64,000 nucleotides of DNA from Celeribacter sp. PS-C1 (GTDB taxonomy: Bacteria > Pseudomonadota > Alphaproteobacteria > Rhodobacterales > Rhodobacteraceae), in contig NZ_JAHXRW010000012.1 in the NCBI RefSeq assembly GCF_019429625.1, positions 1-64,000 on the forward strand. Direction: 5' to 3'. This document shows, in pieces, positions 44,205 to 62,443 of this stretch. Position 1 is the stretch's first letter; every line of letters starts with the position of its first letter. The notes below the pieces were generated by a model. That model was not told where the DNA came from. It was given only the letters and a program-made list of their open reading frames with translations, and ran no database searches. A program made the translations under genes and the position numbers.

Positions 44205-46490
44205 ATGACAGGATATATTCAAAACGCCAGCCATTGGGGCACCTTCGAAGCGCGCTACACAGAGGGGCTCCTTGACGTGCGCCCTGCGCCCAATGATCCG
44301 CATCCCTCGCCCATGCTCGGCAATATCGACGCCATGGTGCATGGGCCGCAGCGCCTCTGCAGGCCTTTGATCCGGCGCGCCTTTTTGGATGGCGATTTTG
44401 AGGCCGCACAGGCCGCACGCGGCGGCGATGATTTCGTGCCTGTCTCTTGGGAGACGGCGCTGGAAATCACCGCACGGGAGCTGGCCCGCGTGCGCGACAC
44501 GTATGGCAACGAGGCGATTTTCGGTGGTTCCTATGGTTGGGCCAGCGCTGGGAGGTTCCACCATGCCCGAACCCAATTGCAGCGCTTCCTCGGCCAATTC
44601 GGCGGCTATACCGCGCAGGAACAGAATTACAGCTACGCCACCGCAATCACCTTTCTGCCGCATATTTTAGGCGACATCGACACGGTGCAAGGCCCGGTCA
44701 GTTCGCTCGACGGGATTGTAAAACACACCGGGCTTTTGCTGAATTTCGGCGGCATTTCTCCGGGCAACATGCAGGTCGAAGCAGGCGGCATGGGCCAGCA
44801 CACAGGCTTCGAATGGCTCGCGGCCTGTCGTCAAAGCGGCATGGAAATCCTCAATATTTCGCCGACGGATCAGGAGCTTCCCGGTGAGGGCGATCCGATC
44901 CCATGGCTGCCCATACGCCCCGGCACGGACACGGCGCTCTTGCTGGCGATGTGTTACACGCTTCTGAACGAGGGCCTCGCCGATCTCGATTTCGTCGCGC
45001 GCTATTGTGTGGGCGGCGCAGAGGTCACGGCCTATATTCGTGGCGAAAGCGATGGCATCGCAAAGACGCCCGACTGGGCCAGCGCGATTTGCGGCATTCC
45101 GGCGGAGCGCATCGCTGATCTCGCCCGCAAATGTGCCGCGACACGGTGTTTTCTCACCATGTCCTGGTCGGTGCAACGCGCAGATCATGGCGAGCAACCG
45201 ATGTGGGCGCTGATCACCTTTGCCGCGCTTCTGGGCCAGATCGGCCTGCCGGGGGGCGGCCTGGCGATTGGTCTCTGGTCGCTCTGCGGCATGGGCAATC
45301 CGCGCCCCGCACTACCGTCTCCGGCGCTGCGCCCCGGCCCGAATCCGGTCAAGGCCTGCATCCCCGTGGCGCGGATTTCCGACATGTTGCTGAACCCCGG
45401 CGCCACCTATCCGTTCAACGGCGAGACCCGGACCTATCCCGACATTCGTCTGATCTATTGGTGCGGCGGCAATCCGTTTCACCACCATCAGGACCTCGCC
45501 AAGCTGACCCGCGCCTTTCGACGTCCTGAGGTGGTGATCGTGCAGGAAATCGCCATGACCGCCACCGCGCGCCATGCCGACATCGTCCTGCCCGCGACCA
45601 CCACGCTGGAGCGCAATGACATTGCCTCCAGCGCGCGCGACCGCTTTATCACCGCCATGTACCGCGTGCTGCCGCCCGTTGGCGAGGCACGAGACGATCA
45701 TGCGATCTTTGCCGATCTGGCGGAACGTCTGGGCTTTGCCGACGCCTTCACCCAAGGGCGCGATGAGATGGCTTGGCTGCGGTCAATCTATGAGGAGGCG
45801 CGCGAAACGGGCGCAAAACGCGATCTGCCCCTGCCCGATTTCGACACCTTTTGGCGGGACGGCCAAGTCGAACTGCCCGCGCCTGAAGCACCCTACGTGC
45901 AATTTTCCGCCTTCCGTGCCGATCCCGAAAGCGCGCCGCTAAAGACGCCGAGCGGCAAGATCGAGCTTTATAGCAAAACCATCGCCGCCATAGGCTATGA
46001 CGATTGCCCCGGCCATGTGACTTGGTTGCCGCCGCGCGAATGGCTTGGGGCGGAGGAGGCGCAAAACGGCCCGGAGGCCCTGCGCCCGCTGCATATGTTG
46101 TCGCTGCAACCGGCAACCCGCCTGCATTCCCAGATGGACCCCGGCCCCCTCGGTCAAGCGACAAAGATCCACGGCGCAGAACCTTGTTTGATCCACCCCG
46201 AAGACGCCCTGCTGCGCAGCATTCAGGACGGCGATCTGATCGAGCTGTTCAATGCCCGAGGGCGCTGTTTGGCGGGCGCGCGCCTGTCGGAACGGGTCAT
46301 ACGCGGGGTGATCGTCCTGCCGACCGGAGCATGGTATCGGCCCGAGGCACCTGAGGGCCGTGACCTGTCGGGCAACCCCAACACATTGACCGAAGATCGC
46401 GGCAGTTCGAAACTGACACAGGCGCCGATCCCGCAGACCACATTGGTGTCCCTAAAACGGTATGAAGGACCGGCGCCTCTTACGCCGTAA
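44205..46490 (+). CDS. BisC/TorA-type molybdopterin oxidoreductase, cytoplasmic
   Basis: Protein of 761 residues of the DMSO-reductase family. The opening has no Tat signal and no cysteine motif for an iron-sulfur cluster, as in BisC. YGWASAGRFHHARTQ lies near 110, and S143 in QNYSYATA is placed as the likely molybdenum-ligand serine. C-terminal cofactor-binding blocks follow (TRLHSQMD, HPEDA). It probably reduces an S-oxide or N-oxide such as biotin sulfoxide or methionine sulfoxide in the cytoplasm. A long frame open upstream of 44205 is antisense to the YeiH gene and is not used. AGGGA precedes the ATG. Confidence 0.85.
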   Translation: MTGYIQNASHWGTFEARYTEGLLDVRPAPNDPHPSPMLGNIDAMVHGPQRLCRPLIRRAFLDGDFEAAQAARGGDDFVPVSWETALEITARELARVRDTYGNEAIFGGSYGWASAGRFHHARTQLQRFLGQFGGYTAQEQNYSYATAITFLPHILGDIDTVQGPVSSLDGIVKHTGLLLNFGGISPGNMQVEAGGMGQHTGFEWLAACRQSGMEILNISPTDQELPGEGDPIPWLPIRPGTDTALLLAMCYTLLNEGLADLDFVARYCVGGAEVTAYIRGESDGIAKTPDWASAICGIPAERIADLARKCAATRCFLTMSWSVQRADHGEQPMWALITFAALLGQIGLPGGGLAIGLWSLCGMGNPRPALPSPALRPGPNPVKACIPVARISDMLLNPGATYPFNGETRTYPDIRLIYWCGGNPFHHHQDLAKLTRAFRRPEVVIVQEIAMTATARHADIVLPATTTLERNDIASSARDRFITAMYRVLPPVGEARDDHAIFADLAERLGFADAFTQGRDEMAWLRSIYEEARETGAKRDLPLPDFDTFWRDGQVELPAPEAPYVQFSAFRADPESAPLKTPSGKIELYSKTIAAIGYDDCPGHVTWLPPREWLGAEEAQNGPEALRPLHMLSLQPATRLHSQMDPGPLGQATKIHGAEPCLIHPEDALLRSIQDGDLIELFNARGRCLAGARLSERVIRGVIVLPTGAWYRPEAPEGRDLSGNPNTLTEDRGSSKLTQAPIPQTTLVSLKRYEGPAPLTP

Positions 46491-47355
46491 CCCCCAACAA
46501 CCGCATGGCATTTTCCTTCAAAATCAAAGGCCGCACCTCGTCGCGGAACTCGGCTTTGTCGAAGGCATCCAGCCATTTCTCCGGCGCGATCATCGGCCAG
46601 TCGGAGCCGAACAACATCTTGTTTTTCAACAAAGTATTCGCGTAGCGCACCAGGATCGGCGGGAAGTATTTCGGCGACCAGCCCGACAGGTCGATGTAGA
46701 CATTCGGCTTGTGGGTCGCGACCGACAGGGCCTCTTCCTGCCACGGAAACGACGGGTGCGCGAGGATGATCGGCATATCGGGAAAATCGACCGCCAGATC
46801 GTCCATATACATCGGATTCGAGTATTTCAGCCGCATGCCATTGCCGCCCTTCATCCCCGATCCGACCCCCGTCTGGCCGGTGTGAAACAGCGCCGGTTTT
46901 CCCGCCTCGGCGATGGCCTCATAGAGCACATAGGCGCTCCGGTCGTTCGGATAAAACCCCTGCATCGTCGGGTGGAATTTAAAGCCCTGAATGCCGTGGT
47001 TCTCCACCAGATCGCGCGCCTCACGGGCACCCAGTTTGCCTTTCGCGGGGTCGATGGAGGCGAAGGGAATGAGGATGTCGGAGTGCTTGGCGGCGGCGTC
47101 CGCGACCTCGTAATTGTCGTAGCGGCGGTAGCCCGTCTCGCGCTCGGCATCGACCGGAAAGATCACGGCGGCGATGTTTTTCTCACGGTAATGCGCAGCG
47201 GTTTGGTCGATGGTGGGCGGATGGGCCCAGGGCGCGTTGAAATATTTCGCCATCGCGGATTGCAGATCGTCGTAGCCATCATCGTGGTGACAGCCGCAGG
47301 CCTCCTCGGCATGGGTGTGAAAATCAATCGCGCGGACGCTCGTAAAATCTACCAT
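46480..47355 (-). CDS. amidohydrolase family protein (amidohydrolase_2 type)
   Basis: Metal-dependent hydrolase or decarboxylase of 291 residues. The metal-binding pattern is H13-x-H15, then H127 (FKFHPT), H157, H199 (LAHPSFPW) and D251 (FGSDWP). An uncommon CGCHH cluster lies at 20-24. Relatives include hydroxybenzoate decarboxylases and lactone hydrolases. It is the last gene of the region D operon and overlaps the converging molybdoenzyme gene by 11 bases. Its substrate is unknown. Confidence 0.82.
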   Translation of the reverse strand: MVDFTSVRAIDFHTHAEEACGCHHDDGYDDLQSAMAKYFNAPWAHPPTIDQTAAHYREKNIAAVIFPVDAERETGYRRYDNYEVADAAAKHSDILIPFASIDPAKGKLGAREARDLVENHGIQGFKFHPTMQGFYPNDRSAYVLYEAIAEAGKPALFHTGQTGVGSGMKGGNGMRLKYSNPMYMDDLAVDFPDMPIILAHPSFPWQEEALSVATHKPNVYIDLSGWSPKYFPPILVRYANTLLKNKMLFGSDWPMIAPEKWLDAFDKAEFRDEVRPLILKENAMRLLGVTA

Positions 47356-47386
47356 CGGTCTTTCAGTCTGTCGTGTGAGAAATAGG

Positions 47387-47412
47387 ACCGGGCGCAGCGC
47401 ACCGCGCCCGGT
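47387..47412 (-). other. stem-loop between Tm-1-like and amidohydrolase genes
   Basis: ACCGGGCGC and GCGCCCGGT form a perfect 9-bp stem with an 8-base loop in the 81-base gap. No strong U-run follows on the minus strand, so it may only reduce expression of the amidohydrolase. Confidence 0.5.
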
Positions 47413-47436
47413 GTGGTCTTTGCAAGGAGGAAGGCG

Positions 47437-48693
47437 TTACGCCATCGCCGGCACGCGCGTCACCTCGCGCACGGCCGCCAAAAGCGCATCGGCAAAGACC
47501 GGATCGTTGATGTGGCCATCAATGCCTTCGACCGGGGCGTAGTCACCAAAGGCCTCCTTGCATTGCGCCTCAAACACCGGCGGCAGGTTCGGACGCGGCA
47601 GCGGGCCATCCGGGCTGTCGTGATGCGAAAAGCCTTTGCGCGGCACAAAGAACCGCACGGGGCCGGTCGCGTCTTTGATGATCCCGGCCATGTGATCGGC
47701 CAGATGCATCAAGTCCTCTTCGGTGGTGCGCACGGCCGTCAGCGCGCTGTTGTGCACGTGATAGCCCCGGCCTTCGAACGGCGCGGCGCCGACCGCAAGC
47801 TGCGAGGGCATGATGTAGAAATCCACATTGCCGGGGGCAAAGACCACGGGGATGCCCTTTTGCACAGCGGTCGCGGCGCGGTACGGCCCCACGGCGCACA
47901 TGCCACCGCGCAGGAAATCGTTGATCTCGACCAGAGACATATCGACGACGGCGGCCACTTCGCGCTCAGAACAAATGGTCTCAAGCGTCCGCCCGCCATT
48001 TCCGGTGGTGTGGAACACCATGACCTCAAAGCCATCGGCCTCAAGCCCCTCGCGCACCCGACGCGAACAGGCTTCGGTCGTGCCCAATGTCGAGACCAGA
48101 ACCAGAGGTTTCTCGCCCGAATGGATCGGCTCATAGCCCTTCGCCATGCCCGCCACAGCCAGTGCGCCGTTGCGGTAAACATCATGGGAAATCGAATTCA
48201 GCCCGGAAATATCGCAAACCGAATTGAGCATGCAGATGTCTTTGACGCCCACGAAGCCTGCCGTCATGCCCGAGGCCAGCGTCGAGATCATCATCTTCGG
48301 CATGCCATAGGGGAAGGCGCGCATCACGGTGGTGCCCATGGTGGTGCCCATCGAGCCGCCGATAGAAAGAATCCCGGAGATCGGCGTTTTCTCATGCACA
48401 GCCAGCGCGCAGGCCACCGCGCCCTCGATCATCTTGTCGAGGATCTTGCCCTCATGGTGAATGGCGCGGACCTCGGCGAGCGTTTTACCCGTGGCGGCGG
48501 CGACCTCTTCAGGCCCGATCTCAGCGCCGCCGATCACTTTGCGCACCGAAGGGTCGAGATGGATGACATCCACCCCTGCGCCTTCGAGTGTCGCGCGCAA
48601 GTAGGCGGCCTCCTCCCGTTTCGTGTCCTGAGTGACAATCATCAGAACCTTTGGACGCGATGCGCCCGTTGTTTGTGCGTTATGTTCAGCCAT
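47437..48693 (-). CDS. Tm-1-like ATP-binding protein (UPF0261)
   Basis: Protein of 418 residues of the UPF0261/Tm-1-like family, with IGGSMGTTMGTTVMRAFPYGMPKMMISTLAS-type glycine-rich blocks near 105-135 and a second Rossmann-like half after about 200. GGGAGG lies before the ATG at 48693. The biochemical role is unclear: plant Tm-1 blocks a viral replicase, and bacterial genes often sit beside a TIM-barrel partner, which is missing here. The operon context suggests a catabolic or ligase-like role. Confidence 0.78.
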   Translation of the reverse strand: MAEHNAQTTGASRPKVLMIVTQDTKREEAAYLRATLEGAGVDVIHLDPSVRKVIGGAEIGPEEVAAATGKTLAEVRAIHHEGKILDKMIEGAVACALAVHEKTPISGILSIGGSMGTTMGTTVMRAFPYGMPKMMISTLASGMTAGFVGVKDICMLNSVCDISGLNSISHDVYRNGALAVAGMAKGYEPIHSGEKPLVLVSTLGTTEACSRRVREGLEADGFEVMVFHTTGNGGRTLETICSEREVAAVVDMSLVEINDFLRGGMCAVGPYRAATAVQKGIPVVFAPGNVDFYIMPSQLAVGAAPFEGRGYHVHNSALTAVRTTEEDLMHLADHMAGIIKDATGPVRFFVPRKGFSHHDSPDGPLPRPNLPPVFEAQCKEAFGDYAPVEGIDGHINDPVFADALLAAVREVTRVPAMA

Positions 48694-48726
48694 GTTTTCC
48701 TCCCTGAACATGTTAATGATAGCGGA

Positions 48727-49476
48727 TCAATGTGCCGTCTGTCCTCCATCGACGACATGCACTGTTCCATTTGTGAAACTTGCGGCCTCGGAACACAGAT
48801 GCAGCACTGTCCCCGAGATCTCGGCGGGATCTGCGGCCCGTCCGATGATGTTGTGTTTGAACATTTCCTCGCGGAAGTCTTCGTCCTCGAGCCAGGCCTC
48901 TGTCATCGGCGTCGCCACAAAGCCCGGCGCGATGGCGTTCACGCGAATGCCGCGCGTGGCGTATTCGACGGCAGCCGCTTTGGTGAGGCCCACGACCGCA
49001 TGTTTGGCGGCGACATAGACCGACATCATCGGATCAGCGATCAGACCGGCGACCGAGGCGGTGTTGACGATGGCCCCGCCGCCCGTGGTCAGAAACTGCG
49101 CGATCTGGGCCTGCATACAGTGGAACACGCCTTTAAGGTCGACTTCCATCACGCGGTCAAACCCGGCATCCGTGACCTCATGCATCGGCTCAGGTTTCGG
49201 CAGGACGCCCGCGTTGTTGAAGGCCGCATGCAGCCCGCCGTGGTCTTGCACCGCCTTGGCCACCGCCGCGCGCACCTGTGCGGCGTCGGTGACATCGCAT
49301 TGGGCAAATTGCGCCACACCGCCCATTCCCGAGATCTCGGCCACCACATCGGCTGCGCGCTTGTCCACGTCAGCGATCAGAACCTTCGCGCCCTGAGAAG
49401 CAAAGGCCAGCGCCGTCGCCCGCCCAATGCCCGTCGCGGCGCCACTGATGAAGACGGATTTGTTTTCGAATGTCAT
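48727..49476 (-). CDS. SDR family NAD(P)-dependent oxidoreductase
   Basis: Short-chain dehydrogenase of 249 residues with SGAATGIG at 11-18, acidic ADVD near 35-38, NNAG at 87-90, Ser141 and Tyr154-x3-Lys158 (YVAAK). An acidic residue after the second strand favours NAD. It follows another SDR by 11 bases. It probably oxidises a secondary alcohol; together the two SDRs could handle two stereoisomers or two steps. Confidence 0.85.
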   Translation of the reverse strand: MTFENKSVFISGAATGIGRATALAFASQGAKVLIADVDKRAADVVAEISGMGGVAQFAQCDVTDAAQVRAAVAKAVQDHGGLHAAFNNAGVLPKPEPMHEVTDAGFDRVMEVDLKGVFHCMQAQIAQFLTTGGGAIVNTASVAGLIADPMMSVYVAAKHAVVGLTKAAAVEYATRGIRVNAIAPGFVATPMTEAWLEDEDFREEMFKHNIIGRAADPAEISGTVLHLCSEAASFTNGTVHVVDGGQTAH

Positions 49477-49487
49477 AGCATCCTCCC

Positions 49488-50261
49488 TCAGCGTGCCGCG
49501 CAGCCGCCGTCGATCACGAGGCTGGTGCCCGTGACGAAATCCGACGCTGACGAGGCGAGATAGAGCACTGAGCCCATGATCTCCTCCGCCTTGGCGGTGC
49601 GGCCCATGGGCGTGAACTCCACGGTCGCCTTGGCAAAATCCGGATCGTTCGGATCGCCGATGGCGGTGTCGAAAAAGCCCGGACAGATCGCGTTCACCTG
49701 CACGTTGTCTTTCGCGTACTCAAGGCCAAGTTCCCGCGTCAGGTTCACCACCGCGCCCTTGGTCGCCGTATAGGCCGGAAGCGGCGCAACGGCTGCCGCG
49801 CCCGCAAGCCCCCACATGGAGGCAGTGTTGATCACCTTGCCGCCGCCCGTTTTGAGCATCTCGCGGATTGCGGCGCGGTTCACGTAGAACACGCCGTCGA
49901 GGTTGATCCCGACCGTCTTATGCCAGTTCTCGCTCTTGTAGCCGTCCAACCGCGCGGGCTCCGGATCGGCGATGCCCGCATTGGCGCAGGCGATGTCGAG
50001 CCGACCGAACCGCCCGATACAGGTGGCGATGGCGCCTTCGACGGCGGCCTCGTCCGACACATCGCCAACCACGGTTTCGACCTCGGTCGCGCCCAGCCCC
50101 GAGACGGTGGTCGCAAGCCCCTTGGCGCTCACATCGAAGAGCACGAGCTTGGCCCCATTGGCGGCCAGCACTTCGGCCATCGCGCGACCAAGTCCGGAAC
50201 CCGCGCCGGTGATAAAGGCCACCTTGCCAGTGACATCGAAAATCTTCTGTGCGGTTGTCAT
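49488..50261 (-). CDS. SDR family NAD(P)-dependent oxidoreductase
   Basis: Short-chain dehydrogenase of 257 residues with TGAGSGLG at 18-25, FDVS near 42-45, CANAG ending at 96, Ser148 and Tyr164-x3-Lys168 (YTATK). The start overlaps the stop of the acyl-CoA ligase gene by ATGA, so the two are translationally coupled. Substrate unknown. Confidence 0.85.
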   Translation of the reverse strand: MTTAQKIFDVTGKVAFITGAGSGLGRAMAEVLAANGAKLVLFDVSAKGLATTVSGLGATEVETVVGDVSDEAAVEGAIATCIGRFGRLDIACANAGIADPEPARLDGYKSENWHKTVGINLDGVFYVNRAAIREMLKTGGGKVINTASMWGLAGAAAVAPLPAYTATKGAVVNLTRELGLEYAKDNVQVNAICPGFFDTAIGDPNDPDFAKATVEFTPMGRTAKAEEIMGSVLYLASSASDFVTGTSLVIDGGCAAR

Positions 50262-52276
50262 GCGCGTTCCTCCTCGCGTGATTGGGTTTCGCGCCAGTCG
50301 GCGGCATAGTCCGCGAACCAGCGCAGAGCGTGGGGATTGCGGGTTGCGCCTTCGCTCGCCACATCCTCCATGGCCGCGCCCAAGAGCAGTTTGCGCACCG
50401 GCACTTCCATTTTCTTGCCCGTCAGCGTCAGCGGAATTTCCGGCGCCTGCAAAATCACATCCGGCACATGGCGCGGACTGCGATCCTTGCGCAGCGTCGT
50501 GCGGATCGCGCCGATCAGCTCTTCGGTCAGCGCCACGCCCTCGGCCAACTCCAAAAACAGCGGCATGAAATAGCCGCCCTGCCCGTCCTCGACACAGACG
50601 ATGAGGCTGTCCTTAACGCCCTCGAAACTGTCGACCGTGCGGTAAATCTCCGCCGAGCCGATGCGCACGCCAAAGCGGTTGAGCGTCGCGTCCGAGCGCC
50701 CGAGCACAAGGCAGGTGCCATCCTCGTGAAACACCACCCGGTCGCCATGGGTCCAGACACCGGGGAAGCGCTCGAAATAGCTCGACCGGTAGCGCGCATT
50801 GCCCTCGTCGCCCCAAAAGAACAGTGGCATCGAGGGCATCGGCTTGCGGATCACCAATTCGCCCACCTCACCGGTGAGCGGCTCACCCGCCTCGGAAAAG
50901 GCCTGCGCATCGGTGGCGAGGCCGCGCGACTGGATCACGCCCGCGCGCACCGGCTGGATCGGCGCACCGGCGAGAATGCCCGAACAGAACTCCGTGCCGC
51001 CCGATTGCGAGGTGACCCAGAGATCGGATTTAACGTTGGCGTAGACCCACTCAAACACCTCCGGCGTGGCGGGCGAACCGACCAGCATGACGGATTGCAG
51101 GGCTGAGAGATCAAAGCGCTCTTTCGGCACGATGCCTTGCTGTTTGACGATCTGCAAAAACGTCGGATTGGTGCCAAAGACGGTCGCACCTGTGGTCTCG
51201 GCCAGTTCGAACAAGGACGTGATTTCGGGAAAAGCCGGATGCCCGTCATAGAGCACGGCGGAGGCGCCCATGAGCGGCCCCCACATCAGCGTGTTCCACA
51301 TCATCCAGCCGGTGGTGGAGTAAAAGAACAGCGTGTCGGAGGGCTTCAGATCGAAATGCACCGCCGCGGATTTCAGGTGTTCGACCACGATGCCATGATG
51401 CCCATGCACAATGGGTTTCGGCAGGCCGGTCGTGCCTGAGGAGAACAGCACCCAAAGCGGATGATCGGACGCCACACGGGTGTAGGTGAAGGCCTCGCGG
51501 GTCACTTCCTCGCCGGAGAGCATGTCGTCCCAAGTGTGGATCGTGCCATCGAACGCTGGGGCCTTGGCCGCCGTCGGTTGGTAATCAAGCATCACCAGAT
51601 CGCGCGCCTCGGGCAGCGCCGCGAGGATCATCGCAAGGTCCTCGGTGCGGTCGAAATCCTTGCCGCCGTAGCGATAGCCATTGGCCGCAAACACCAGTTT
51701 CGGCGCGATCTGACCGAAGCGGTCGATCACCGTCTGCGCGCCGAACTCGGGCGCAGCAGAGGACCATGTGGCGCCAATGGCCGTGGTCGCGAGCATAGCG
51801 ATCACCGCCTCCGGAATGTTAGGCATATAAGCGGCGACGCAATCTCCCTCGCCGAGGCCCATGCCGCGCAGTTTGGTCGCCAGTTTCCGTACGGCGGACC
51901 CAACCTCCCCCCAGCTCATCGTCGCATGAGGCCGCAACTCCGACGAGTGATGCAGCATCACACGGGCCGGATCACCCGCCTCTTCGAGCCGCAGCACATG
52001 TTCGGCGTAGTTGAGCTTGGTGCCGGTGAACCAGCGCGTGTCGGGCATCGGGTCGGCGCTCATCACCTCTTTGATGTCGCCATCATGGATTACATCAAAA
52101 TAGGTCCATATATGTCGCCAAAAATCCTCCGGTTCGTCAATCGACCATGCAAGCATGGCATCGTAATCGTCGAAACTCAGACCCTGTTCTGCGAGCCAAT
52201 CCAAGAGTTTCGTGGCATTGGCTGCGGCATGACGGGCCGAGGGCGCGGTCCAGAGAATATCAGTGTGTGTGGTCAT
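50258..52276 (-). CDS. acetoacetate-CoA ligase-like acyl-CoA synthetase
   Basis: Adenylate-forming enzyme of 672 residues. The AMP/phosphate loop FSSGTTGLPKP lies at 278-288, and the C-terminal catalytic lysine stretch LTLTGKKMEVPVRKLL begins near 616. Length, the N-terminal helical part (ending WFTGTKLNYAE) and the Trp-rich GWMMWNTLMWGPL stretch match acetoacetyl-CoA synthetases rather than acetyl-CoA synthetases. It should activate a 3-oxoacid with ATP and CoA. A carboxylase encoded just upstream could supply that 3-oxoacid. Confidence 0.85.
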   Translation of the reverse strand: MTTHTDILWTAPSARHAAANATKLLDWLAEQGLSFDDYDAMLAWSIDEPEDFWRHIWTYFDVIHDGDIKEVMSADPMPDTRWFTGTKLNYAEHVLRLEEAGDPARVMLHHSSELRPHATMSWGEVGSAVRKLATKLRGMGLGEGDCVAAYMPNIPEAVIAMLATTAIGATWSSAAPEFGAQTVIDRFGQIAPKLVFAANGYRYGGKDFDRTEDLAMILAALPEARDLVMLDYQPTAAKAPAFDGTIHTWDDMLSGEEVTREAFTYTRVASDHPLWVLFSSGTTGLPKPIVHGHHGIVVEHLKSAAVHFDLKPSDTLFFYSTTGWMMWNTLMWGPLMGASAVLYDGHPAFPEITSLFELAETTGATVFGTNPTFLQIVKQQGIVPKERFDLSALQSVMLVGSPATPEVFEWVYANVKSDLWVTSQSGGTEFCSGILAGAPIQPVRAGVIQSRGLATDAQAFSEAGEPLTGEVGELVIRKPMPSMPLFFWGDEGNARYRSSYFERFPGVWTHGDRVVFHEDGTCLVLGRSDATLNRFGVRIGSAEIYRTVDSFEGVKDSLIVCVEDGQGGYFMPLFLELAEGVALTEELIGAIRTTLRKDRSPRHVPDVILQAPEIPLTLTGKKMEVPVRKLLLGAAMEDVASEGATRNPHALRWFADYAADWRETQSREEERA

Positions 52277-54599: not shown

Positions 54600-55954
54600 A
54601 CCTCCGCGCCATGATGTTCAAGGAAACGCGGCAGGTAGGTCGTATCGACCCCGCCCGCGCGAAATTCACCCTCGGAGAGGATCGCGTGATGCAGCGGCGC
54701 GTTGGTTTTGACGCCTTCGAGCACACAGACATCGAGCGCCTTGAGCATCCGGTCCATCGCCTCTTCGCGGGTGGCGGCATGGACGATGAGCTTGGCGATC
54801 ATCGAGTCGTAATAGGGCGAGATCATCGCACCGGGCACCATATGGGTGTCGACCCGAAGGCCCTCCATCGGCGGAAACCAAGCCATGGTGACGCGCCCCG
54901 GTGCGGGGCGAAACTCATGGGCGAGGTCTTCTGCGTTGAGACGACATTCGATGGCATGGCCGGTGAGACGGATGTCATCTTGCGTCAGTGTCAGGGGCTT
55001 GCCCTCGGCCACCTCGATCTGCTGCGCCACGAGATCGAGGCCGGAGATCATTTCCGTCACCGGATGTTCGACCTGAATCCGGGCGTTCATTTCCAGAAAA
55101 TAAAAGTTCTGCCGCTCCATATCGACGAGGAATTCGACGGTGCCCAGCGAGCGATAGCCAAGGTGGCGGGCGAATTTCACCGCCGCCGCCAAAAGCCCGT
55201 CTCTGAGCGCCTTGGGCAGTTCCGGCGCGGGGGCCTCCTCGATCACCTTTTGATAGCGTCGTTGCACCGAACAATCGCGTTCGCCGACGTGCAAGACCGT
55301 CTCGCCATCGGAGAGGATTTGCACCTCGACATGGCGTCCGACTGTCACAAACCGTTCGAGATAGACCCGCCCGTCGCCAAAGGCAGCGGCGGCTTCAGAG
55401 GTCGCCAAATCGAGCTGGCTTTCCAGATCTTCCATCCGGTCCACACGTTTCATGCCGCGCCCGCCGCCGCCGGAAACGGCTTTGATCAGCAAAGGAAATC
55501 CGATTTCTTCGGCGATCTTACGAGCGTCTTCCACGGTCTCGGCAGAGCCCCCCGGCACCAGCGGCACCTGAGCGGCTTCGGCATGGCTACGCGCGGTGAG
55601 CTTGTCACCCACGGCGTCGAGATGCGGCAGGTCAGGACCGATGAAGATGATCCCCTCCTCGGCACAGGCCTCGGCCAGCGCGCGGTTCTCGGAGAGAAAG
55701 CCGTAGCCCGGATGAATGGCGTCACAGCCTGTGCCCTTGGCGGCCTCCACGACGGTGCCGACAGAGAGATAGCTTTCCGTGGCCCGCGCGGGGCCGAGGC
55801 ACACCGCGCGGGTGGCAAGTTTCGCGCCCAAAGTGTCGCGATCCGCCTCCGAGACGCCCAGCACGGTTTCGATGCCCAAGGCCCGGCAGGTCTTGATCAC
55901 ACGCACGGCGATCTCGCCGCGGTTGGCGATGAAAATTCGTTTGATCGGGGTCAT
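54590..55954 (-). CDS. biotin carboxylase subunit
   Basis: ATP-grasp protein of 454 residues. ATP-loop GGGGRGM lies near 165, RHVEVQILSD near 208, ERDCSVQRRYQKVIEEAP near 228 and NARIQVEHPVTE near 291, all canonical for AccC-type biotin carboxylase. It carboxylates the biotin of the carrier with ATP and bicarbonate. The overlap with the carboxyltransferase gene (10 bases) and the 4-base gap to the carrier gene show a dedicated enzyme rather than the housekeeping acetyl-CoA carboxylase. Confidence 0.92.
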   Translation of the reverse strand: MTPIKRIFIANRGEIAVRVIKTCRALGIETVLGVSEADRDTLGAKLATRAVCLGPARATESYLSVGTVVEAAKGTGCDAIHPGYGFLSENRALAEACAEEGIIFIGPDLPHLDAVGDKLTARSHAEAAQVPLVPGGSAETVEDARKIAEEIGFPLLIKAVSGGGGRGMKRVDRMEDLESQLDLATSEAAAAFGDGRVYLERFVTVGRHVEVQILSDGETVLHVGERDCSVQRRYQKVIEEAPAPELPKALRDGLLAAAVKFARHLGYRSLGTVEFLVDMERQNFYFLEMNARIQVEHPVTEMISGLDLVAQQIEVAEGKPLTLTQDDIRLTGHAIECRLNAEDLAHEFRPAPGRVTMAWFPPMEGLRVDTHMVPGAMISPYYDSMIAKLIVHAATREEAMDRMLKALDVCVLEGVKTNAPLHHAILSEGEFRAGGVDTTYLPRFLEHHGAEVCQ

Positions 55955-55958: not shown

Positions 55959-56432
55959 TCACTCCGGCTGAACGGAGATCAGCGCCTGACCGTGTTCGAC
56001 CAGCACGCCGTCCTCGGCATGGATCGCGGTGACGATGCCCGCCACATCGGCGGTGACGGAGTTCATCAACTTCATCACCTCGATGATGCCGATCACCGTG
56101 TCCGGCTCGACGCGATCTCCGACTTTGACGAAGGGTGCAGCGCCCGGTTTCGGCGCGGAATAATAAGTGCCCAAAAGCGGCGCGGGCACTTCGGAGCCGC
56201 CACCCGAGGCGACGACAGGGGCCGCAACCGGAGTTGCCTCTGTCGGCTTCGGCGCAGGAGCCGCCTGCGCAACAGGGGCCTCTGCGACAGGCGCGGCAGC
56301 CCCGGATTGACCCGCCCCACGGCGGCGCAGCTCGATCTTCGTGTCGCCGATCTCAAGGCGCAGCTCGTCGAAATCGGATTGATCGACCAGCGCGAGAATG
56401 TCGTTGATGTCTTGTCGTGTCAGCGCGCTCAT
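55959..56432 (-). CDS. biotin carboxyl carrier protein
   Basis: Protein of 157 residues. The N-terminal 45 residues (ALTRQDINDILALVDQSDF) resemble AccB, then come an Ala/Pro linker and a C-terminal biotinyl domain with biotin-lysine K121 in EVMKLMNSV. The ATG at 56432 follows GGAGACC. It is the first gene of the carboxylase operon, about 190 bases from the IclR-type palindromes. Confidence 0.9.
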   Translation of the reverse strand: MSALTRQDINDILALVDQSDFDELRLEIGDTKIELRRRGAGQSGAAAPVAEAPVAQAAPAPKPTEATPVAAPVVASGGGSEVPAPLLGTYYSAPKPGAAPFVKVGDRVEPDTVIGIIEVMKLMNSVTADVAGIVTAIHAEDGVLVEHGQALISVQPE

Positions 56433-56669: not shown

Positions 56670-57542
56670 TTACGGGGCCGCGATTTTCGGCCCTGCACTT
56701 TGCTGCGTGAAACTGTTCTGAGCTTCCATCAAGCCTTCGGAAATCTCACGCGCCGCCGCTTGCAGCGGCCCAACAAAGCGTTCGATGGCTTGCGCGCGCG
56801 GCAGCACCTTTTTGGCCCAAGTGATGTTGATCGCGCCAACAGTGGAATAACCGACGACAATCGGCACACCGACGGAATCGCGCCCATCATCATGGCTGGC
56901 GCGGCCTTCGTCATAAGAGCCGCCGAAATCGACATCGCGCAGGCCGAATCCCTGCTCGCGGGTGACGGCGATGGCCTCTGCGACCATTTCCGGCACGGCG
57001 GCCATAAGATCGCCCTTGCGGCCCGTGCGGCGCAGCGCATCGAGGATCGCCTCGCGTTTGGCATCCTCGCAATAGGCGATGTAGGCGCGCCCCGTGGCGG
57101 AGCGCAACATATTGATCTTGAACCCCAAAGGCCCGAGGGGGATGTGGTGAAAATAGCTGCGCGGCGTGTTGGCCTCGATCACCTCCATGCAGGTGAGACG
57201 CGGCGCCGCCAGCACGGAGGGCCATTTCACCTCGCCCGTCAGAGCCTCCAGAACCGGCGAGGCGACCTCGACCAGTCGGGTTTCGCGGTCGACCCGGTTG
57301 GCCAGTTCCGAAAGCGAATAAGACGGGATGTAATGGTCGTCCAAGATGCGTTGCCAAATCATGCCGCGCTCGGCCAAGGTTTTCAGGATGCGCAAAAGCG
57401 AGGCCTTAGGAATGCCCGACATGCGGTGCAGATCATGCAGGCTAACGGCGCCCGCGGCCTGGATGAGTTGCAACACCTCCAGCCCGCGGGCAAGCGATTC
57501 AATGGATTTCACCTGAACCTGTTTCACCCGTCCGCGCTCCAT
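56670..57542 (-). CDS. IclR family transcriptional regulator
   Basis: Protein of 290 residues with an N-terminal winged helix (about 12-75; LHDLHRMSGIPKASLLRILKTLAERG) and a C-terminal effector domain (about 85-265; RSATGRAYIAYC, then GYSTVGAINIT). The start overlaps the LivM-type gene by 19 bases and has GGAAAGGATC upstream. It is in the importer operon and next to the carboxylase promoter, so it probably controls both in response to the imported substrate or a product. Confidence 0.9.
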   Translation of the reverse strand: MERGRVKQVQVKSIESLARGLEVLQLIQAAGAVSLHDLHRMSGIPKASLLRILKTLAERGMIWQRILDDHYIPSYSLSELANRVDRETRLVEVASPVLEALTGEVKWPSVLAAPRLTCMEVIEANTPRSYFHHIPLGPLGFKINMLRSATGRAYIAYCEDAKREAILDALRRTGRKGDLMAAVPEMVAEAIAVTREQGFGLRDVDFGGSYDEGRASHDDGRDSVGVPIVVGYSTVGAINITWAKKVLPRAQAIERFVGPLQAAAREISEGLMEAQNSFTQQSAGPKIAAP

Positions 57543-58618
57543 CCCGATCCTTTCCCGCTCTTCTTGGTTTCAGGCGCCTCAAGATGCCGCCCGACCATCA
57601 CCAATGACAGGCCGTGCCGCGATTTGAGATAGCCCCAGATACCCTGCGGAAATCCGAGCGCCATGACGATGGCCGAAGCACCGAGCACCAGAAGATACCA
57701 GACACCGTAACCGCCCAGAAAGGTTTCGAGGAGGAAAAAAACGATGGCTCCCAAAATCGCGCCCTCGAAGGTGCCGATGCCGCCGACGATCACCATGAAA
57801 ATCGTGTAGGCCATCCATTGCACGGAGAAATAGGCTTTCGGCTGAAAGCTCACATTGCCCGCGAGCCAAAGCGCACCGGCGAGGGCCGCGCCGAAAGCCG
57901 CGAAGACAAAGATCACCTGTTTGGTGCGGAACACATTGACGCCCACCGAATGCGCCGCCGCCTCGTCATCGCGGATCGCCTGAAGCGCCGCCCCGATGCG
58001 CGAGCGCAGCAAGAGGAACATGGCGGAGATGACCGCCACAGCGGAGACCAGTGCCATGAGGTAGATCACCAGATTTCGGGTCTCGGCAGGCACGGCATTG
58101 AGCGCGATGAGCGACACGCCGGTCTCGCCCTGAATGAGCGGATCGAGATTGACGAGGAGGTGAAACAGGGTGGCGAGCACCCACATGCCGATGGCGAATT
58201 CGCCCTCCTTGAGCCGCAGCATGACGAAACTCACAGGAAGCGCGATGGCACCCACGACAAGAGCCGCGACGACGAGTGAGGGAAAGACCGGTAGCCCCGC
58301 GTCCGAGAGCCGGATGGTGACATAGGCGCCAAGGCCAAAGAAGCCCTGTTGCCCGACAGAGACCTGCCCCGCATAGCCCGCCAGTGCATTCCAGGTCACG
58401 GCCAAGAGGATGTAGACAAAGAGCGCCACCGCCCGGTCCATAAAGGCCGCGCCAGTGACCGCCGGGGCCAGCGCCAAAGCGGCGACGGCGACGGCAAAGA
58501 GCAGCACGGTGATCTTGGCACGCGGGGTCCAGCGGCGGACGCGGTAGGCGGGGGTGGGTGTATCGGCCATATGCGCGAACTCCGTGGAGGCAGAAGAAAA
58601 AGGAGAGGAGAGGCTCAT
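57524..58618 (-). CDS. LivM-type ABC transporter permease
   Basis: Permease of about 364 residues with the LivM pattern (GQVSVGQQGFFGLGAYVTIRL near 85, RIGAALQAIRDDEAAAHSVG near 215, VGGIGTFEGAILGAIVFF near 290). The start overlaps the LivH-type gene by ATGA. A second start 16 codons later (MADTPTPAYR) is possible because it also has a ribosome-binding site. Confidence 0.9.
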   Translation of the reverse strand: MSLSSPFSSASTEFAHMADTPTPAYRVRRWTPRAKITVLLFAVAVAALALAPAVTGAAFMDRAVALFVYILLAVTWNALAGYAGQVSVGQQGFFGLGAYVTIRLSDAGLPVFPSLVVAALVVGAIALPVSFVMLRLKEGEFAIGMWVLATLFHLLVNLDPLIQGETGVSLIALNAVPAETRNLVIYLMALVSAVAVISAMFLLLRSRIGAALQAIRDDEAAAHSVGVNVFRTKQVIFVFAAFGAALAGALWLAGNVSFQPKAYFSVQWMAYTIFMVIVGGIGTFEGAILGAIVFFLLETFLGGYGVWYLLVLGASAIVMALGFPQGIWGYLKSRHGLSLVMVGRHLEAPETKKSGKGSGWSADG

Positions 58619-59496
58619 GCCGCAGCCCTCCGCAACTTGGGCAGACGCAGCGTGCCGAATTGCAGACGCAGGAAAAGCGCCGCGAAGAACACGAGATGCC
58701 CACCGATGAGGAAGCCCTGGGTGTGAATGGTTGCGCCCAAGGTCTGGGCGAGACCCAAGACGATGCCGCCAAAGAGCGTGCCGCGCACGGAGGTCGAGCC
58801 ACCGATGACGGCCGCCTGAAAGGCAAACAAAAGCTGGGTCACACCGGCATAGGGCGTGAATGTGGTGCGCATCCCAAGCGCCGCCCCCGCAACGCCAATG
58901 GCGACAAAGGCCAGCGCCGAAGCAATCGTGCGGGCGCGCCGCGCATCGACGCCCACAAGCCCCGCCGTGTCCGGATCAGTTGCTGTGGCCCGGATCGCGC
59001 GTCCCAAAGGCGTGCGTGCGATCAACAGTGTCAGCCCGGTCAAAAGCCCGACAGCGGTCAAGAGGATATAGACCGAGATCTTGCCCACCCAGAGCCCGCC
59101 AATTTCCCAAGACGCCCAGGCGAGATCCCCCAGAGCATTGGCCAGCGTGCGCGTGTTGGCGCCCCAAATTTGAAAGATCAGATTGTCGATCACGACAGAG
59201 AGACCGAAGGTCGCCAGCACCGACAAAAGCTGTCCACCCTTTTGCACCGGCTCGAAAATCAACCGATCCACCAGCGCGCCGATCACCGCCATGATTGGCA
59301 AGACAGCCAGCACCGCAAGCCAGACATTGATCCCCAAACTGTCGGCCATCGCCAAGACGAGATAGGCCGCGAGCACGGCAAAAGAGCCATGTGCGAGGTT
59401 GATGATCCCCATGATGGAATAGAGAAACGCAAGGCCCACGGCCAAAAGCGCATAATAGCCGCCCAAGAGGACGCCCTGCAGCAGAATATCGATCAT
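58615..59496 (-). CDS. LivH-type ABC transporter permease
   Basis: Permease of 293 residues with eight or so membrane segments, opening IDILLQGVLLGGYYALLAVG and carrying GRAIRATATDPDTAGLVGVD near 167 as the coupling loop. Partner of the LivM-type protein; overlaps both neighbours. Confidence 0.92.
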   Translation of the reverse strand: MIDILLQGVLLGGYYALLAVGLAFLYSIMGIINLAHGSFAVLAAYLVLAMADSLGINVWLAVLAVLPIMAVIGALVDRLIFEPVQKGGQLLSVLATFGLSVVIDNLIFQIWGANTRTLANALGDLAWASWEIGGLWVGKISVYILLTAVGLLTGLTLLIARTPLGRAIRATATDPDTAGLVGVDARRARTIASALAFVAIGVAGAALGMRTTFTPYAGVTQLLFAFQAAVIGGSTSVRGTLFGGIVLGLAQTLGATIHTQGFLIGGHLVFFAALFLRLQFGTLRLPKLRRAAA

Positions 59497-60239
59497 GTCA
59501 TGGCTCCCATGGCAGGATTGGCATGGTCTTCAGAACCGGGCGGAAGACCGAAATAAGCACCGATGATCTCCTCGCGGGAGAGGCTGTCGGCGCGGCCCTG
59601 AAGGACGATCTCGCCCTCCAACATACAAATCACCCGATCCGCCACCGACAGGGCGCGGCCGAGGTCTTGCTCGACCACAACAACGCCCGTGCCCGAAGCG
59701 CGGAGCTCCGGCAGCACGGCATAGACGCGGTCGACGATGGCCGGAGAAAGGCCCAGTGAAACCTCATCGAGCATGATGACATCGGGGTTGCTCACCAGCG
59801 CCCGGCCAATGGCCACCGCCTGTTGTTCACCGCCCGAGAGATGCGTACATGCGGAATAACGACGCTTTTGCAGATTGTCGAAAACGTCGAAAATCCGCTC
59901 CGGCGTCCAGTCGCCGGACCGCCCGACCTGTGCTCCGAGACAGAGGTTTTCCCAGACGTTCATTTGGCTGAAAAGCTTGCGCCCCTCGGGCACCAAAGCC
60001 AGACCGCGCTGCACCCGTTTGTGGGCGTCGCATCCGGTGAGGTCCTCGCCCTTGAGCGTGACCCTGCCGCCCTGATCCAAATGCGCGCCGGCGATGGACC
60101 GCAACAGCGTGGACTTGCCCGCCCCATTGGCGCCGACCAAAGCCACCACTTCGCCGGGCGCGACGGAAAAGGACACGCCTTTGACGGCGGTCAAAAGCCC
60201 GTGGCGGGCCGTCAGATCGGAAATTTCGAGAACGCTCAT
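59493..60239 (-). CDS. LivF-type ABC transporter ATP-binding protein
   Basis: ATPase of 248 residues with canonical Walker A GANGAGKST near 36-44, signature LSGGEQQAVAIGRAL, and Walker B VIMLDEVSLGLSP, where the usual Pro after Glu is Val. The ATG at 60239 overlaps the LivG-type stop. Compare the LivF-type protein at 7972, in which the Walker A lysine is lost. Confidence 0.92.
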   Translation of the reverse strand: MSVLEISDLTARHGLLTAVKGVSFSVAPGEVVALVGANGAGKSTLLRSIAGAHLDQGGRVTLKGEDLTGCDAHKRVQRGLALVPEGRKLFSQMNVWENLCLGAQVGRSGDWTPERIFDVFDNLQKRRYSACTHLSGGEQQAVAIGRALVSNPDVIMLDEVSLGLSPAIVDRVYAVLPELRASGTGVVVVEQDLGRALSVADRVICMLEGEIVLQGRADSLSREEIIGAYFGLPPGSEDHANPAMGAMT

Positions 60240-60994
60240 GCCACCCCCTGCCCCAGATAGGCTTCCATCACCAATGGATCGCGCATCACCGCTTGCGGCT
60301 CGCCATCGGCGATGATCCGGCCCATATCCATGCAGATCAGCCGCTCGGAGACCTGCAACAACACATGAACGATGTGCTCGATCCAGACGATGGCACAGCC
60401 CGAGGCGCGGATTTCGCGGATGATCTCGACCAACACTTCGGCCTCTGCATCCGTGAGCCCGCCGCCCACCTCGTCCAACAGGATCACGCGGGGCGAAGTC
60501 GCCAAAGCACGCGCCATTTCCAGACGTTTGCGGTCCAAAAGCCCGAGCCGATCCGCCTGCGTGTTGGCCAGCGGCAACATCCGGCAAAGCTTGAGCGCGT
60601 CATATGCCAGCGCATCTGCGTCGCCATTTTCCGGCCCTCCAAAACTCGCCGCGAGACGGGCGTTCTCGAACACCGTCAGCCCCCCGAAGGGCCGCGGGAT
60701 TTGATGCGTGCGCACCACGCCGCGTCGGCACATGATCTCGGCGGGCGTGCCGGTCACATCCGAACCATCCAAAAGGATCGTCCCGGTCGAGGGTGCAAAG
60801 GCCCCGGTGAGGGCGGCGAGAAAGGTCGACTTGCCCGCACCGTTGGGACCGACAATGCCCACGGCCTCTCCTGCCCTGAGATCGAAACTCACCTCAGACA
60901 GCGCATGCACCGCGCCAAAGGACTTGCCGAGATCAGACACCGAGAGAATGGGAGGCGCAGCCTGCGCCCCCTCTGTCGTGATAGACTGTGTCAT
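60236..60994 (-). CDS. LivG-type ABC transporter ATP-binding protein
   Basis: ATPase of about 252 residues with Walker A GPNGAGKST and Walker B VILLDEVGGGLTD. The canonical LSGGQ signature is not evident; the matching place reads RLGLLDRKRLEMARAL, as in many LivG proteins. Start is either ATG 60994 or a GTG at 61003 overlapping the binding-protein stop; neither has a strong ribosome-binding site. Confidence 0.9.
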   Translation of the reverse strand: MTQSITTEGAQAAPPILSVSDLGKSFGAVHALSEVSFDLRAGEAVGIVGPNGAGKSTFLAALTGAFAPSTGTILLDGSDVTGTPAEIMCRRGVVRTHQIPRPFGGLTVFENARLAASFGGPENGDADALAYDALKLCRMLPLANTQADRLGLLDRKRLEMARALATSPRVILLDEVGGGLTDAEAEVLVEIIREIRASGCAIVWIEHIVHVLLQVSERLICMDMGRIIADGEPQAVMRDPLVMEAYLGQGVA

Positions 60995-60999
60995 CCCGC

Positions 61000-62301
61000 T
61001 CACCCGTTATAGGGCAACAGCGCGCCAGCCACCGGCACGTTCGGATCGGTGGCGTTTTCGGTCAGCACCTGACTGACTGGGAACTCGCTGCCCTCGACCG
61101 GCTGCCATTGCGAGCCAAGGATCGGACCATGCGCCACATTAGGCACCGGACCGGAGGTGAAATCGACCGTGCCGTTCACCGTCTCGACGTTGAGCTTTGA
61201 GATCGCTGTCGCGATGGCGTCGCGATCCATCGGCGCGCCGCTTTGATCAAGCGCGGCCAAGGCCACGTCAAACAGCGCCAAAGACGCCCCGAGTTGCAGC
61301 ATCCATTGACGCCCGGTCTCGGTCTCATAGGCGGCGGCAAGTGCTTCGGCGCTGTGGCCCGTCGTGGGCGAGCTATAGGGCATGTCGCGGTGCCAATAGA
61401 CGGCGGAGGCGAGTTTCGGCCCGAGCGAGCCCATCGCATCGATGTCGGATTGGAAGAGGCCAGTCTTGGCGACCTGTACGATTTTCACCTGACGGCTCAG
61501 CCCCTGTTGCGCGGATTGGCGCCAGAAGGTGGCAAAGTCGGGCGGCAGGGCGAAGGAATTGATGATCTCCACGCCATTCTCACGGAAATAGCGGATTTGC
61601 GTCGTATAATCGGAGGTAAAGCTCTCAAACGCACCCGGATCGAACACCTCGAAACCCGCAGCCTCAAGTTGCGGTGCGAGCATGGCGCGCACGGCGTTGC
61701 CATCGGCGTCGTTCGGGTAGAGCACGCCGACCTTTTTGTTGGTGTCAATCGCGTTCCACTGCGAGATATAGGCCTGCGCGAATTCATCGACGCCAAAGCC
61801 GAAGTGGTAGGAATATTTGAACGGGCTGGGCTCGCCGGGTTTCGCCCCACGGCCGAAATAGAACGCCTGCCACGGCATCACGGTCGAGACACAGGGCACG
61901 CCCGCCGCTTCGCAGGCGTCTGCCACCGGATTGATGGTCTCGGGGGTGCAGGAGGCGAGGATGATCTGGACGCCTTCGCCGTTGATCAGATCGCTTGCAA
62001 GCTGGGCCGCGCGGGCCGGATCGGATTGCGTATCACGGTCGAGAATTTCGATCTCCCGTGTTTCCCCGGCAATCGATGCGCCTTCGGCCACCGCCTTGCG
62101 CACCAGATCGAGGATAAAGGGATCGGCCTCACCAAACGCGGCAAGCGGCCCGGAGCGCGGCGAGATAAAGCCAATGCGGATCGGCGCGCCATCTGCGGCC
62201 ATGAGTCCGCGTGCGGCTGTGAGCAAAGGCAAACTCGCAAGACCGGCGGTGAAGGCACGTCTGGAAACCCCGCTAAAGCGGGGGCGTTTCGAATGTGTCA
62301 T
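61000..62301 (-). CDS. Tat-exported substrate-binding protein of Liv-type ABC transporter
   Basis: Protein of 433 residues. The N-terminus has a twin-arginine motif (SRRAFTAGL, from about 13) and a hydrophobic core ending near AADGAPI, so it is likely exported folded. The rest is a type I binding fold opening IRIGFISPRSGPLAAFGEADPF. GGGAGGAAATC precedes the ATG at 62301. It heads the region D importer operon. Its substrate is unknown, and no hairpin separates it from the ATPase gene, unlike region A. Confidence 0.88.
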   Translation of the reverse strand: MTHSKRPRFSGVSRRAFTAGLASLPLLTAARGLMAADGAPIRIGFISPRSGPLAAFGEADPFILDLVRKAVAEGASIAGETREIEILDRDTQSDPARAAQLASDLINGEGVQIILASCTPETINPVADACEAAGVPCVSTVMPWQAFYFGRGAKPGEPSPFKYSYHFGFGVDEFAQAYISQWNAIDTNKKVGVLYPNDADGNAVRAMLAPQLEAAGFEVFDPGAFESFTSDYTTQIRYFRENGVEIINSFALPPDFATFWRQSAQQGLSRQVKIVQVAKTGLFQSDIDAMGSLGPKLASAVYWHRDMPYSSPTTGHSAEALAAAYETETGRQWMLQLGASLALFDVALAALDQSGAPMDRDAIATAISKLNVETVNGTVDFTSGPVPNVAHGPILGSQWQPVEGSEFPVSQVLTENATDPNVPVAGALLPYNG

Positions 62302-62350
62302 GATTTCCTCCCTTAGGCGCTTGGCGCGCCTTGATTGTCCCGGGCCTCCC

Positions 62351-62368
62351 TGACGTGATCGCACGTCA
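62351..62368. promoter_or_regulatory. 18-bp palindrome before the Tat binding-protein gene
   Basis: TGACGTG-ATCG-CACGTCA is a perfect 7-4-7 palindrome about 50 bases before the start codon. Its core GACGTG-N4-CACGTC is identical to that of the palindrome upstream of fdhA. It may be an operator or a leader hairpin. Confidence 0.5.
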
Positions 62369-62424
62369 CCCGGTGCCCCCACTATGCGGGGTTTGCAGGA
62401 GGTCACATAGGAACATTCCCGGAG

Positions 62425-62443
62425 GATTTCACAGAGTGAAATC
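62425..62443. promoter_or_regulatory. IclR-type operator before the importer operon
   Basis: GATTTCAC-AGA-GTGAAATC is a perfect 8-3-8 palindrome about 125 bases before the binding-protein gene. It has the same TTTCAC-N3-GTGAAA form as the site before the carboxylase operon, linking both to the IclR regulator. Confidence 0.68.

Follow-up and report, generated by a model that had tools for sequence, protein, structure and literature searches.

What does the run of 15 genes on the minus strand of Celeribacter sp. PS-C1, at positions 46480-62301 of the stretch analysed here, break down, and by which chemistry? This stretch of 64,000 nucleotides, called the window below, stands at the very start of contig C4 in a genome of 3.87 Mb. 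An initial annotation had read the run, with its importer, dehydrogenases, three-part biotin carboxylase, ligase, phosphatase, Tm-1-like protein and amidohydrolase, as an undescribed pathway for ketones and alcohols. Pfam and NCBIfam searches confirmed that these genes stand together in the interval, while a pathway of this kind turned out to be known already, as Hpe in Rhodococcus and Acv in strain SYK-6 (PMC9618137). With a probability that we put at about 85%, the window cluster is a hydroxyphenylethanone operon of the type that starts with the kinase MarK. This reading is built on the gene families present, on homology to Hpe, on the complementary occurrence of two kinase types and on downstream genes in the same genome. 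What is added here is one cluster that would join an importer, a regulator and two short-chain dehydrogenase/reductase (SDR) genes to the proposed steps to hydroxybenzoate, together with evidence for the HpeHI and UPF0261 kinases as interchangeable modules.

Likeness to the Hydroxyphenylethanone Pathway

The hydroxyphenylethanone pathway of Rhodococcus rhodochrous GD02 is encoded by hpeHICBADEF (Dexter et al. 2022, PMC9618137). Its parts are the kinase HpeHI, which is a two-component dikinase (PMC12167813), the biotin-dependent carboxylase HpeCBA, the NagD-like phosphatase HpeD, the AcsA2-like ligase HpeE, whose closest characterised homologue is the acsA2 product, and the CouO-like hydrolase HpeF; HpeHI, HpeCBA and HpeD were assayed, and HpeCBA accepted 4-phospho compounds and rejected free phenols (PMC9618137). 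XccBCA of Aromatoleum and the Acv system of Sphingobium SYK-6 are homologues of HpeCBA (PMC9618137). Since HpeCBA is biotin-dependent, the premise of the initial annotation that the known ketone carboxylases do without biotin falls.

Counterparts of hpeC, B, A, D, E and F, six of the eight gene types, are present in the window. In a profile search, a plasmid locus of Rhodococcus JS3073 (L156) was found to hold both kinase parts, H and I, together with the carrier, biotin carboxylase (BC), carboxyltransferase (CT), HAD phosphatase, acetoacetate-CoA ligase (AacS) and amidohydrolase genes. The window proteins are 49% (CT), 48% (BC), 43% (carrier), 37% (HAD), 42% (AacS) and 54% (amidohydrolase) identical to those of L156, and both amidohydrolases belong to the Amidohydro_2 family. 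From the gene position in L156, we infer that HpeF is this amidohydrolase. The final cleavage, which had been placed outside the cluster, need not be sought elsewhere, as the window has its own relative of the gene at the HpeF position.

The route that we propose would begin with import by the Liv-type ABC transporter and with oxidation of 1-(4-hydroxyphenyl)ethanol to the ketone by the SDRs, a step for which only some related loci have genes. The UPF0261 protein, as a MarK-type kinase, would then phosphorylate the phenol hydroxyl in an ATP-dependent reaction, the carrier, BC and CT would carboxylate the acetyl methyl group by way of biotin, and the HAD phosphatase would remove the phosphate after carboxylation. 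Formation of the CoA thioester is assigned to the AacS-like ligase, and its hydrolysis to 4-hydroxybenzoate or vanillate and acetyl-CoA to the amidohydrolase; PobA and the Pca enzymes, whose genes stand in another part of the genome, would take hydroxybenzoate onward. Each reaction in this organism, as well as the exact substrate, is deduced from sequence. From the order of chemistry proposed earlier, biotin-dependent carboxylation of a ketone followed by CoA activation can be kept, and ketone formation by the SDRs is plausible; the phosphorylation and dephosphorylation steps had been missed. The HAD phosphatase and the UPF0261 protein, which had been left without a role, fit these two steps on either side of the carboxylation.

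Conservation of the Core

The genomes of 84,980 species were scanned with a CT alignment, by which 435 stretches were matched; 417 of them encode relatives, and the best 80 were kept. Among these best 80 of 417, a carrier gene was found in 75, a BC gene in 70 and a HAD gene in 72, with many loci ending at contig ends. Because carrier, BC and HAD recur around the CT relatives, the gene set is not a product of chance. The closest named CT in this set is that of Celeribacter naphthalenivorans, with 98% identity.

The survey loci, two loci from a class sample and the window made up 83 Hpe-type loci; L096-L100, whose CTs are of another kind (33-39% identical), and L101, which has no CT, stand outside this count. 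A HAD gene is present in 75 of the 83 and lies on the strand of the CT in all 75. It is kept in 17/17 loci of the UPF0261 type and in 48/51 of the HpeHI type, and in 21/21 of the UPF0261 type once the plasmid and further-genome loci described below are included. Since the phosphatase is retained with either kinase type, phosphate is presumably added in both.

Two groups of more distant CTs were seen on the way. L096, L097 and L098 carry a CT of another kind (37-38% identical) with carrier, BC and three gene families of their own that they share (clusters 44-46), and are possibly another biotin carboxylase pathway. Plasmid pRB98 of Rhodococcus oxybenzonivorans (L159) has a distant CT (38%) together with genes whose annotations read pyruvate phosphate dikinase, thiolase family and tyrosine-protein phosphatase. 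It gave no HAD match and is a possible further variant of the phosphorylate-carboxylate-dephosphorylate chemistry.

Complementary Occurrence of Two Kinase Modules

In Pfam, the HpeH-type protein has a phosphoenolpyruvate (PEP)-utiliser domain and the HpeI-type protein a PPDK_N domain. By profile scan of the 83 loci, HpeHI (either part) was found in 51, UPF0261 in 17, both in none and neither in 15, and in all 15 module-less loci the sequence runs for at most 2.7 kb beyond the CT frame in one direction or in both. Five plasmid loci follow the same rule, with HpeHI in L156 and L157 and UPF0261 in L158, L160 and L161 (16 plasmid records were matched, six taken and five counted, L159 being left out as a distant kind with neither module), and so do three further genomes, with HpeHI in L162 and L163 and UPF0261 in L164. 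In total, HpeHI is present in 55 and UPF0261 in 21 of the 76 loci with one module, and no locus has both; G647, a 98% match, was not among the loci counted. A naive hypergeometric calculation for 0/83 gives 2.8e-9, where the loci are related and so not independent.

The first CT tree, with the module-less loci included, gave five changes of state, four of them forced. On a second tree of 76 rows and two outgroup rows, made without L030, L098-L100 and 14 other module-less loci, six changes were counted, of which five are forced by supported branches, with a range of five to seven over bootstraps. Independent pairs on the CT tree were complementary in 5/5 cases.

Among the 17 UPF0261-type genomes, 13 gave no full-length HpeH, the window's being one of them; there, the HpeH search recovered only a PEP-utiliser mobile domain, in an 819-codon frame. 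That HpeHI might be encoded elsewhere in the window's genome was rejected for want of a full-length HpeH, which leaves room for a kinase of another family. In two genomes, at L152:8329-10968 and in L154, a UPF0261 gene adjoins one for a protein that weakly matches the HpeI-type profile (148 and 171 bits).

It is possible, although we would not wager on it, that MarK-type UPF0261 proteins and HpeHI are swappable activation modules of a single carboxylase-phosphatase core, with five or more replacements of one by the other. Carried further, the same tentative idea would make all UPF0261/Tm-1 proteins candidate small-molecule phosphotransferases, among them the antiviral Tm-1 of plants and those bacterial relatives that pair with PEP-hydrolase-like proteins; this clade would be the first with known substrates. 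A kinase exchange around one core was not found described in the literature searched; Hall et al. 2025 may contain it.

The UPF0261 Protein as a Candidate MarK-Type Kinase

The window UPF0261 protein was modelled with AlphaFold (mean pLDDT 84.8), and the best structural match of the model is 9MPY, released in September 2025, which is Saro_1862 of Novosphingobium aromaticivorans with bound acetovanillone; the two proteins are 53% identical. When scored against 9MPY, the window protein reached 450.6 bits and that of Sphingomonas bisphenolicum 578.1 bits, with 170.7 and 187.5 bits for two proteins from outside the Hpe-linked clade. In N. aromaticivorans, a very similar pathway starts with the single-component kinase MarK (PMC13101465, citing Hall et al. 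2025). Because no locus carries both modules, because the acetovanillone-bound Saro_1862 is this similar and because of the report on MarK, the window protein is most likely a MarK-type kinase. The idea that a kinase role of UPF0261 had gone unrecognised was dropped, given 9MPY and the same report.

In a tree with 24 other UPF0261 rows, the 17 Hpe-linked proteins group together as a separate clade (SH-aLRT 100). No known kinase fold was recognised among the structural matches, the strong ones being UPF0261/Tm-1 structures only, and since the weaker ones are enzymes of many kinds, no mechanism is claimed from the fold. The usual partner of UPF0261 is the PEP-hydrolase-like PF09370, which we take to be the protein called TBST. 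PF09370 was not found in 15 of the 17 UPF0261-type genomes, the window's included, and joint work with this partner was rejected on that ground. Of 504 bacterial genomes in which TBST is present, 491 are reported to have UPF0261 as well (PMC5028733).

Residues of the Carboxyltransferase

Acetone and acetophenone carboxylases have hydantoinase-type large subunits and no biotin. The window enzyme is made up differently, with biotin carrier, biotin carboxylase and PYC_OADA domains in Pfam. Thr83 of its CT aligns with an Arg of the solved OADA, PYC-B and transcarboxylase 5S chains (5/5 alignments printed), presumably the residue that binds the carboxylate of the oxo acid. Of the 88 rows in the Hpe-type CT alignment, 87 have Thr at this position and one has Ser; of the distant outgroup CTs, 4/5 have Arg and 1/5 a gap. 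These five outgroup rows align poorly elsewhere (for instance, Tyr in 4/5 at Lys176), and little was rested on them for this reason. Asp12, Lys176, His206 and His208, which we take to be the metal-site residues by Rhizobium etli pyruvate carboxylase numbering, are invariant (88/88). Column 240, presumably the catalytic Thr of pyruvate carboxylase, is variable, with Thr in 46, Ser in 14, Ile in 21 and other residues in 7 rows. At eight of the nine active-site columns examined, the UPF0261-type and kinase-type rows agree, and the columns that separate the two types by the set threshold (157, 172, 289 and 346) are not among these nine.

Substrate and Downstream Route

On contig C38 of the window's genome (L165:440-11441), a pob/pca block is made up of a pcaQ-like gene, pcaD, pcaH, pcaG, pcaB and pobA. 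PobA scores 635 bits against a cut-off of 538.7, and pcaD, pcaH, pcaG and pcaB are above their cut-offs. Near this block there is a second amidohydrolase, 98% identical to that of the window, beside an acyl-CoA synthetase that scores 669 bits, below the model cut-off of 777. The L165 block looks like a hydroxycinnamate-to-hydroxybenzoate module with the same last enzyme as the window, and so close a copy, next to a CoA ligase and to pobA and pca genes, points to a hydroxybenzoate as the product. On the simplest reading, an aryl-beta-ketoacyl-CoA is the substrate of both amidohydrolases, which would cleave it to acetyl-CoA and a hydroxybenzoate for PobA and the Pca enzymes. The gene set for hydroxyacetophenone breakdown looks near-complete, and the cluster itself unusually complete.

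Hydroxyacetophenones are ketones from lignin or bisphenol A. A UPF0261-type cluster is found on pBAR1 of Sphingomonas bisphenolicum AO1 (L160), by its name a bisphenol A degrader, where it follows genes for an RPE65-family oxygenase, an aldehyde dehydrogenase and a BKACE enzyme; another is found on a plasmid of Pseudomonas putida YC-AE1 (L158). The latter strain degrades bisphenol A via 4-hydroxyacetophenone, whose full degradation is reported with the data not shown there (PMC9733184). The likely substrates of the window's pathway are hydroxyphenylethanones and not, as had been suggested, ketones at large.

Weighing of the Explanations

Several observations weigh against a MarK-type hydroxyphenylethanone operon. 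The authors of the work on YC-AE1 place 4-hydroxyacetophenone in a hydroquinone route and not in this cluster (PMC9733184). The sign test on the CT tree has only five independent pairs (p 0.0625), too few for a value of 0.05, and the identity of MarK with Saro_1862 is our inference. Diverged full-length HpeH proteins are encoded elsewhere in four of the 17 UPF0261-type genomes (loci L132-L135), with 738-783 bits vs 949-1141 bits in five HpeHI-type controls. One of these, L132, lies in the genome of L035 and combines an HpeHI-like kinase with a second, more distant carrier-BC-CT-HAD set; as L035 is a UPF0261-type cluster, this genome has both systems at separate places. In L134:3815-11070 and L135:5113-10985, genes for a UbiD-family enzyme and a distant UPF0261 protein adjoin HpeHI-like kinase genes; the genomes in question have a carboxylase cluster of the UPF0261 type as well. 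A UPF0261 protein therefore need not replace a kinase; we take these two loci to resemble phenylphosphate synthase/carboxylase clusters. SDR genes are present in only some related loci, and no AacS or amidohydrolase match was obtained in the fetched stretch of L160, L161 and L164. Finally, column 240 of the CT is Ile in 19/51 kinase-type and 0/17 UPF0261-type rows and, therefore, the two CT types are not identical there.

The cluster might instead serve a non-phenolic, aliphatic or alicyclic ketone, with formation of the ketone from an alcohol, direct biotin carboxylation, AacS-type ligation and other roles for UPF0261 and HAD. The ligase does score above the cut-off of the equivalog model for acetoacetate-CoA ligase, models of butanediol and hydroxycyclohexane-carboxylate dehydrogenases pick up the SDRs with scores under their cut-offs, and the other route given to hydroxyacetophenone in YC-AE1 would leave room for it. 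However, likeness to AacS is expected in an HpeE counterpart, given the acsA2 product as nearest characterised homologue, and a HAD phosphatase in every UPF0261-type locus is sensible if phosphate is added. Together with the resemblance of UPF0261 to a protein solved with acetovanillone, the amidohydrolase copy near pob/pca and the agreement of the CT types at eight of nine columns, this makes a non-phenolic ketone unlikely. If the substrate is a hydroxyphenylethanone, UPF0261 could still be an accessory for binding or scavenging, the phosphorylation being left to an unrelated kinase. This would suit the distant UPF0261 proteins beside HpeHI-like kinases in L134 and L135 and the lack of a known kinase among the fold matches beyond UPF0261/Tm-1, a missing match being no proof; we regard it as very unlikely, since both modules are found together in 0/76 loci, MarK is reported as a single-component kinase (PMC13101465) and a UPF0261 homologue binds acetovanillone.

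A split pyruvate or oxo-acid carboxylase operon of anaplerotic function, joined to unrelated catabolic genes, was also considered, as the CT is above the Pfam cut-off for PYC_OADA and matches NCBIfam models of pyruvate carboxylase and oxaloacetate decarboxylase. All 17 NCBIfam matches of the CT fell short of the model cut-offs, however, the Arg of the oxo-acid family is replaced in all 88 rows, and a separate pyruvate-carboxylase-like match stands elsewhere in the genome, in a 1157-codon frame on contig C12. A split pyruvate carboxylase was rejected on the residue pattern and the missed cut-offs; the window CT is, to judge by its residues, not an oxo-acid carboxylase, and this explanation is scarcely credible. 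The MarK-type hydroxyphenylethanone operon remains the best explanation of the locus.

Layout of the Gene Run

The features of the run are collected in Table 1. Neighbouring genes overlap or are closely spaced, the widest spacing being the 237 bases between the IclR and carrier genes, and from strand and spacing the 15 genes would form a single regulon. A promoter scan of the IclR-carrier gap gave one match only, on the opposite strand. The EVMKLMN motif of the carrier protein is presumably the biotinylation site, and DxDGT is present in 67/67 members of the HAD gene cluster. Sequence matches in the PDB gave no specific answer on the substrate of the SDRs.

Table 1. Genes of the run in the window, listed in the direction of reading of the minus strand.
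Feature	Position	Strand	Evidence
Liv-type ABC importer, periplasmic binding protein	61000..62301	-	Peripla_BP_6, E 1.1e-41
ABC ATPase, LivG type	60236..60994	-	ABC_tran + BCA_ABC_TP_C
ABC ATPase, LivF type	59493..60239	-	ABC_tran
ABC permease, LivH type	58615..59496	-	BPD_transp_2
ABC permease, LivM type	57524..58618	-	BPD_transp_2; alternative later start 58570
IclR-family regulator	56670..57542	-	PRK09834 and PcaR/PcaU/PobR models, matches below cut-offs
Biotin carboxyl carrier protein, AccB-like, HpeC counterpart	55959..56432	-	TIGR00531, 122.8 bits (cut-off 115.2)
Biotin carboxylase, HpeA counterpart	54590..55954	-	PRK08591, 598.4 bits (cut-off 597)
Carboxyltransferase, PYC/OADA family, HpeB counterpart	53130..54593	-	PYC_OADA above Pfam cut-off
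HAD-IIA phosphatase, NagD-like, HpeD counterpart	52273..53130	-	DIDGT motif
AMP-forming ligase, AacS family, HpeE counterpart	50258..52276	-	TIGR01217, 725.6 bits (cut-off 520.9)
SDR dehydrogenase 1, proposed 1-arylethanol dehydrogenase	49488..50261	-	adh_short_C2
SDR dehydrogenase 2, proposed 1-arylethanol dehydrogenase	48727..49476	-	adh_short_C2
UPF0261/Tm-1-like protein, proposed MarK-type hydroxyphenylethanone kinase	47437..48693	-	PF06792 + PF23189
Amidohydro_2 protein, HpeF type by position, proposed aryl-beta-ketoacyl-CoA hydrolase	46480..47355	-	Amidohydro_2

Upstream of the importer, an asparaginase-family gene lies on the same strand (62481-63464). Further away in the window, positions 14544-27454 and 39641-42211 hold genes for a Rieske oxygenase, a BCCT transporter, DAO, sarcosine-oxidase alpha-like and GCV_T/DAO proteins and a serine dehydratase, and look like a block for betaine or methylglycine degradation.

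Comparison with Known Systems

With this assignment, the false lead of an undescribed ketone pathway is removed. The compact cluster, in which seemingly all steps from hydroxyphenylethanone to hydroxybenzoate are encoded with a single-gene kinase, could be useful for converting by-products of lignin or bisphenol A. A repeated swap of two unrelated kinases on one core would offer natural pairs for asking why phosphorylation precedes carboxylation, and it could help to explain UPF0261 proteins, for the majority of which no function was found.

Among the known systems, Hpe of Rhodococcus shares with the window the biotin carrier, CT, BC, NagD-like phosphatase, AacS-like ligase, hydrolase and proposed order of reactions. 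It differs in that the window lacks the HpeHI dikinase and has a UPF0261 protein instead; the two SDRs, the Liv importer and the IclR regulator of the window are additions to the Hpe set. The acvABCDEF genes of Sphingobium sp. SYK-6 are homologous and syntenous to hpeHICBAD and, as in the window, provide a kinase, a three-part carboxylase and a phosphatase; unlike in the window, the Acv kinase is two-component and the last two steps are carried out by the non-homologous VceA and VceB (PMC9618137). XccBCA of Aromatoleum aromaticum EbN1 is by its published description a three-part biotin carboxylase like that of the window and acts on 4-hydroxyacetophenone, but in an anaerobic ethylphenol pathway; it is about 50% identical to HpeCBA, and its genes are clustered with hpeHI homologues (PMC9618137). 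The MarK pathway of N. aromaticivorans, like that proposed for the window, starts with a single kinase protein, and Saro_1862, probably MarK itself, is a UPF0261 protein. Kinase and carboxylase genes were reported to be clustered in only 52 of 836 cases (PMC13101465), a pattern from which the window departs, having both in one cluster with the phosphatase, ligase, hydrolase, SDRs and importer.

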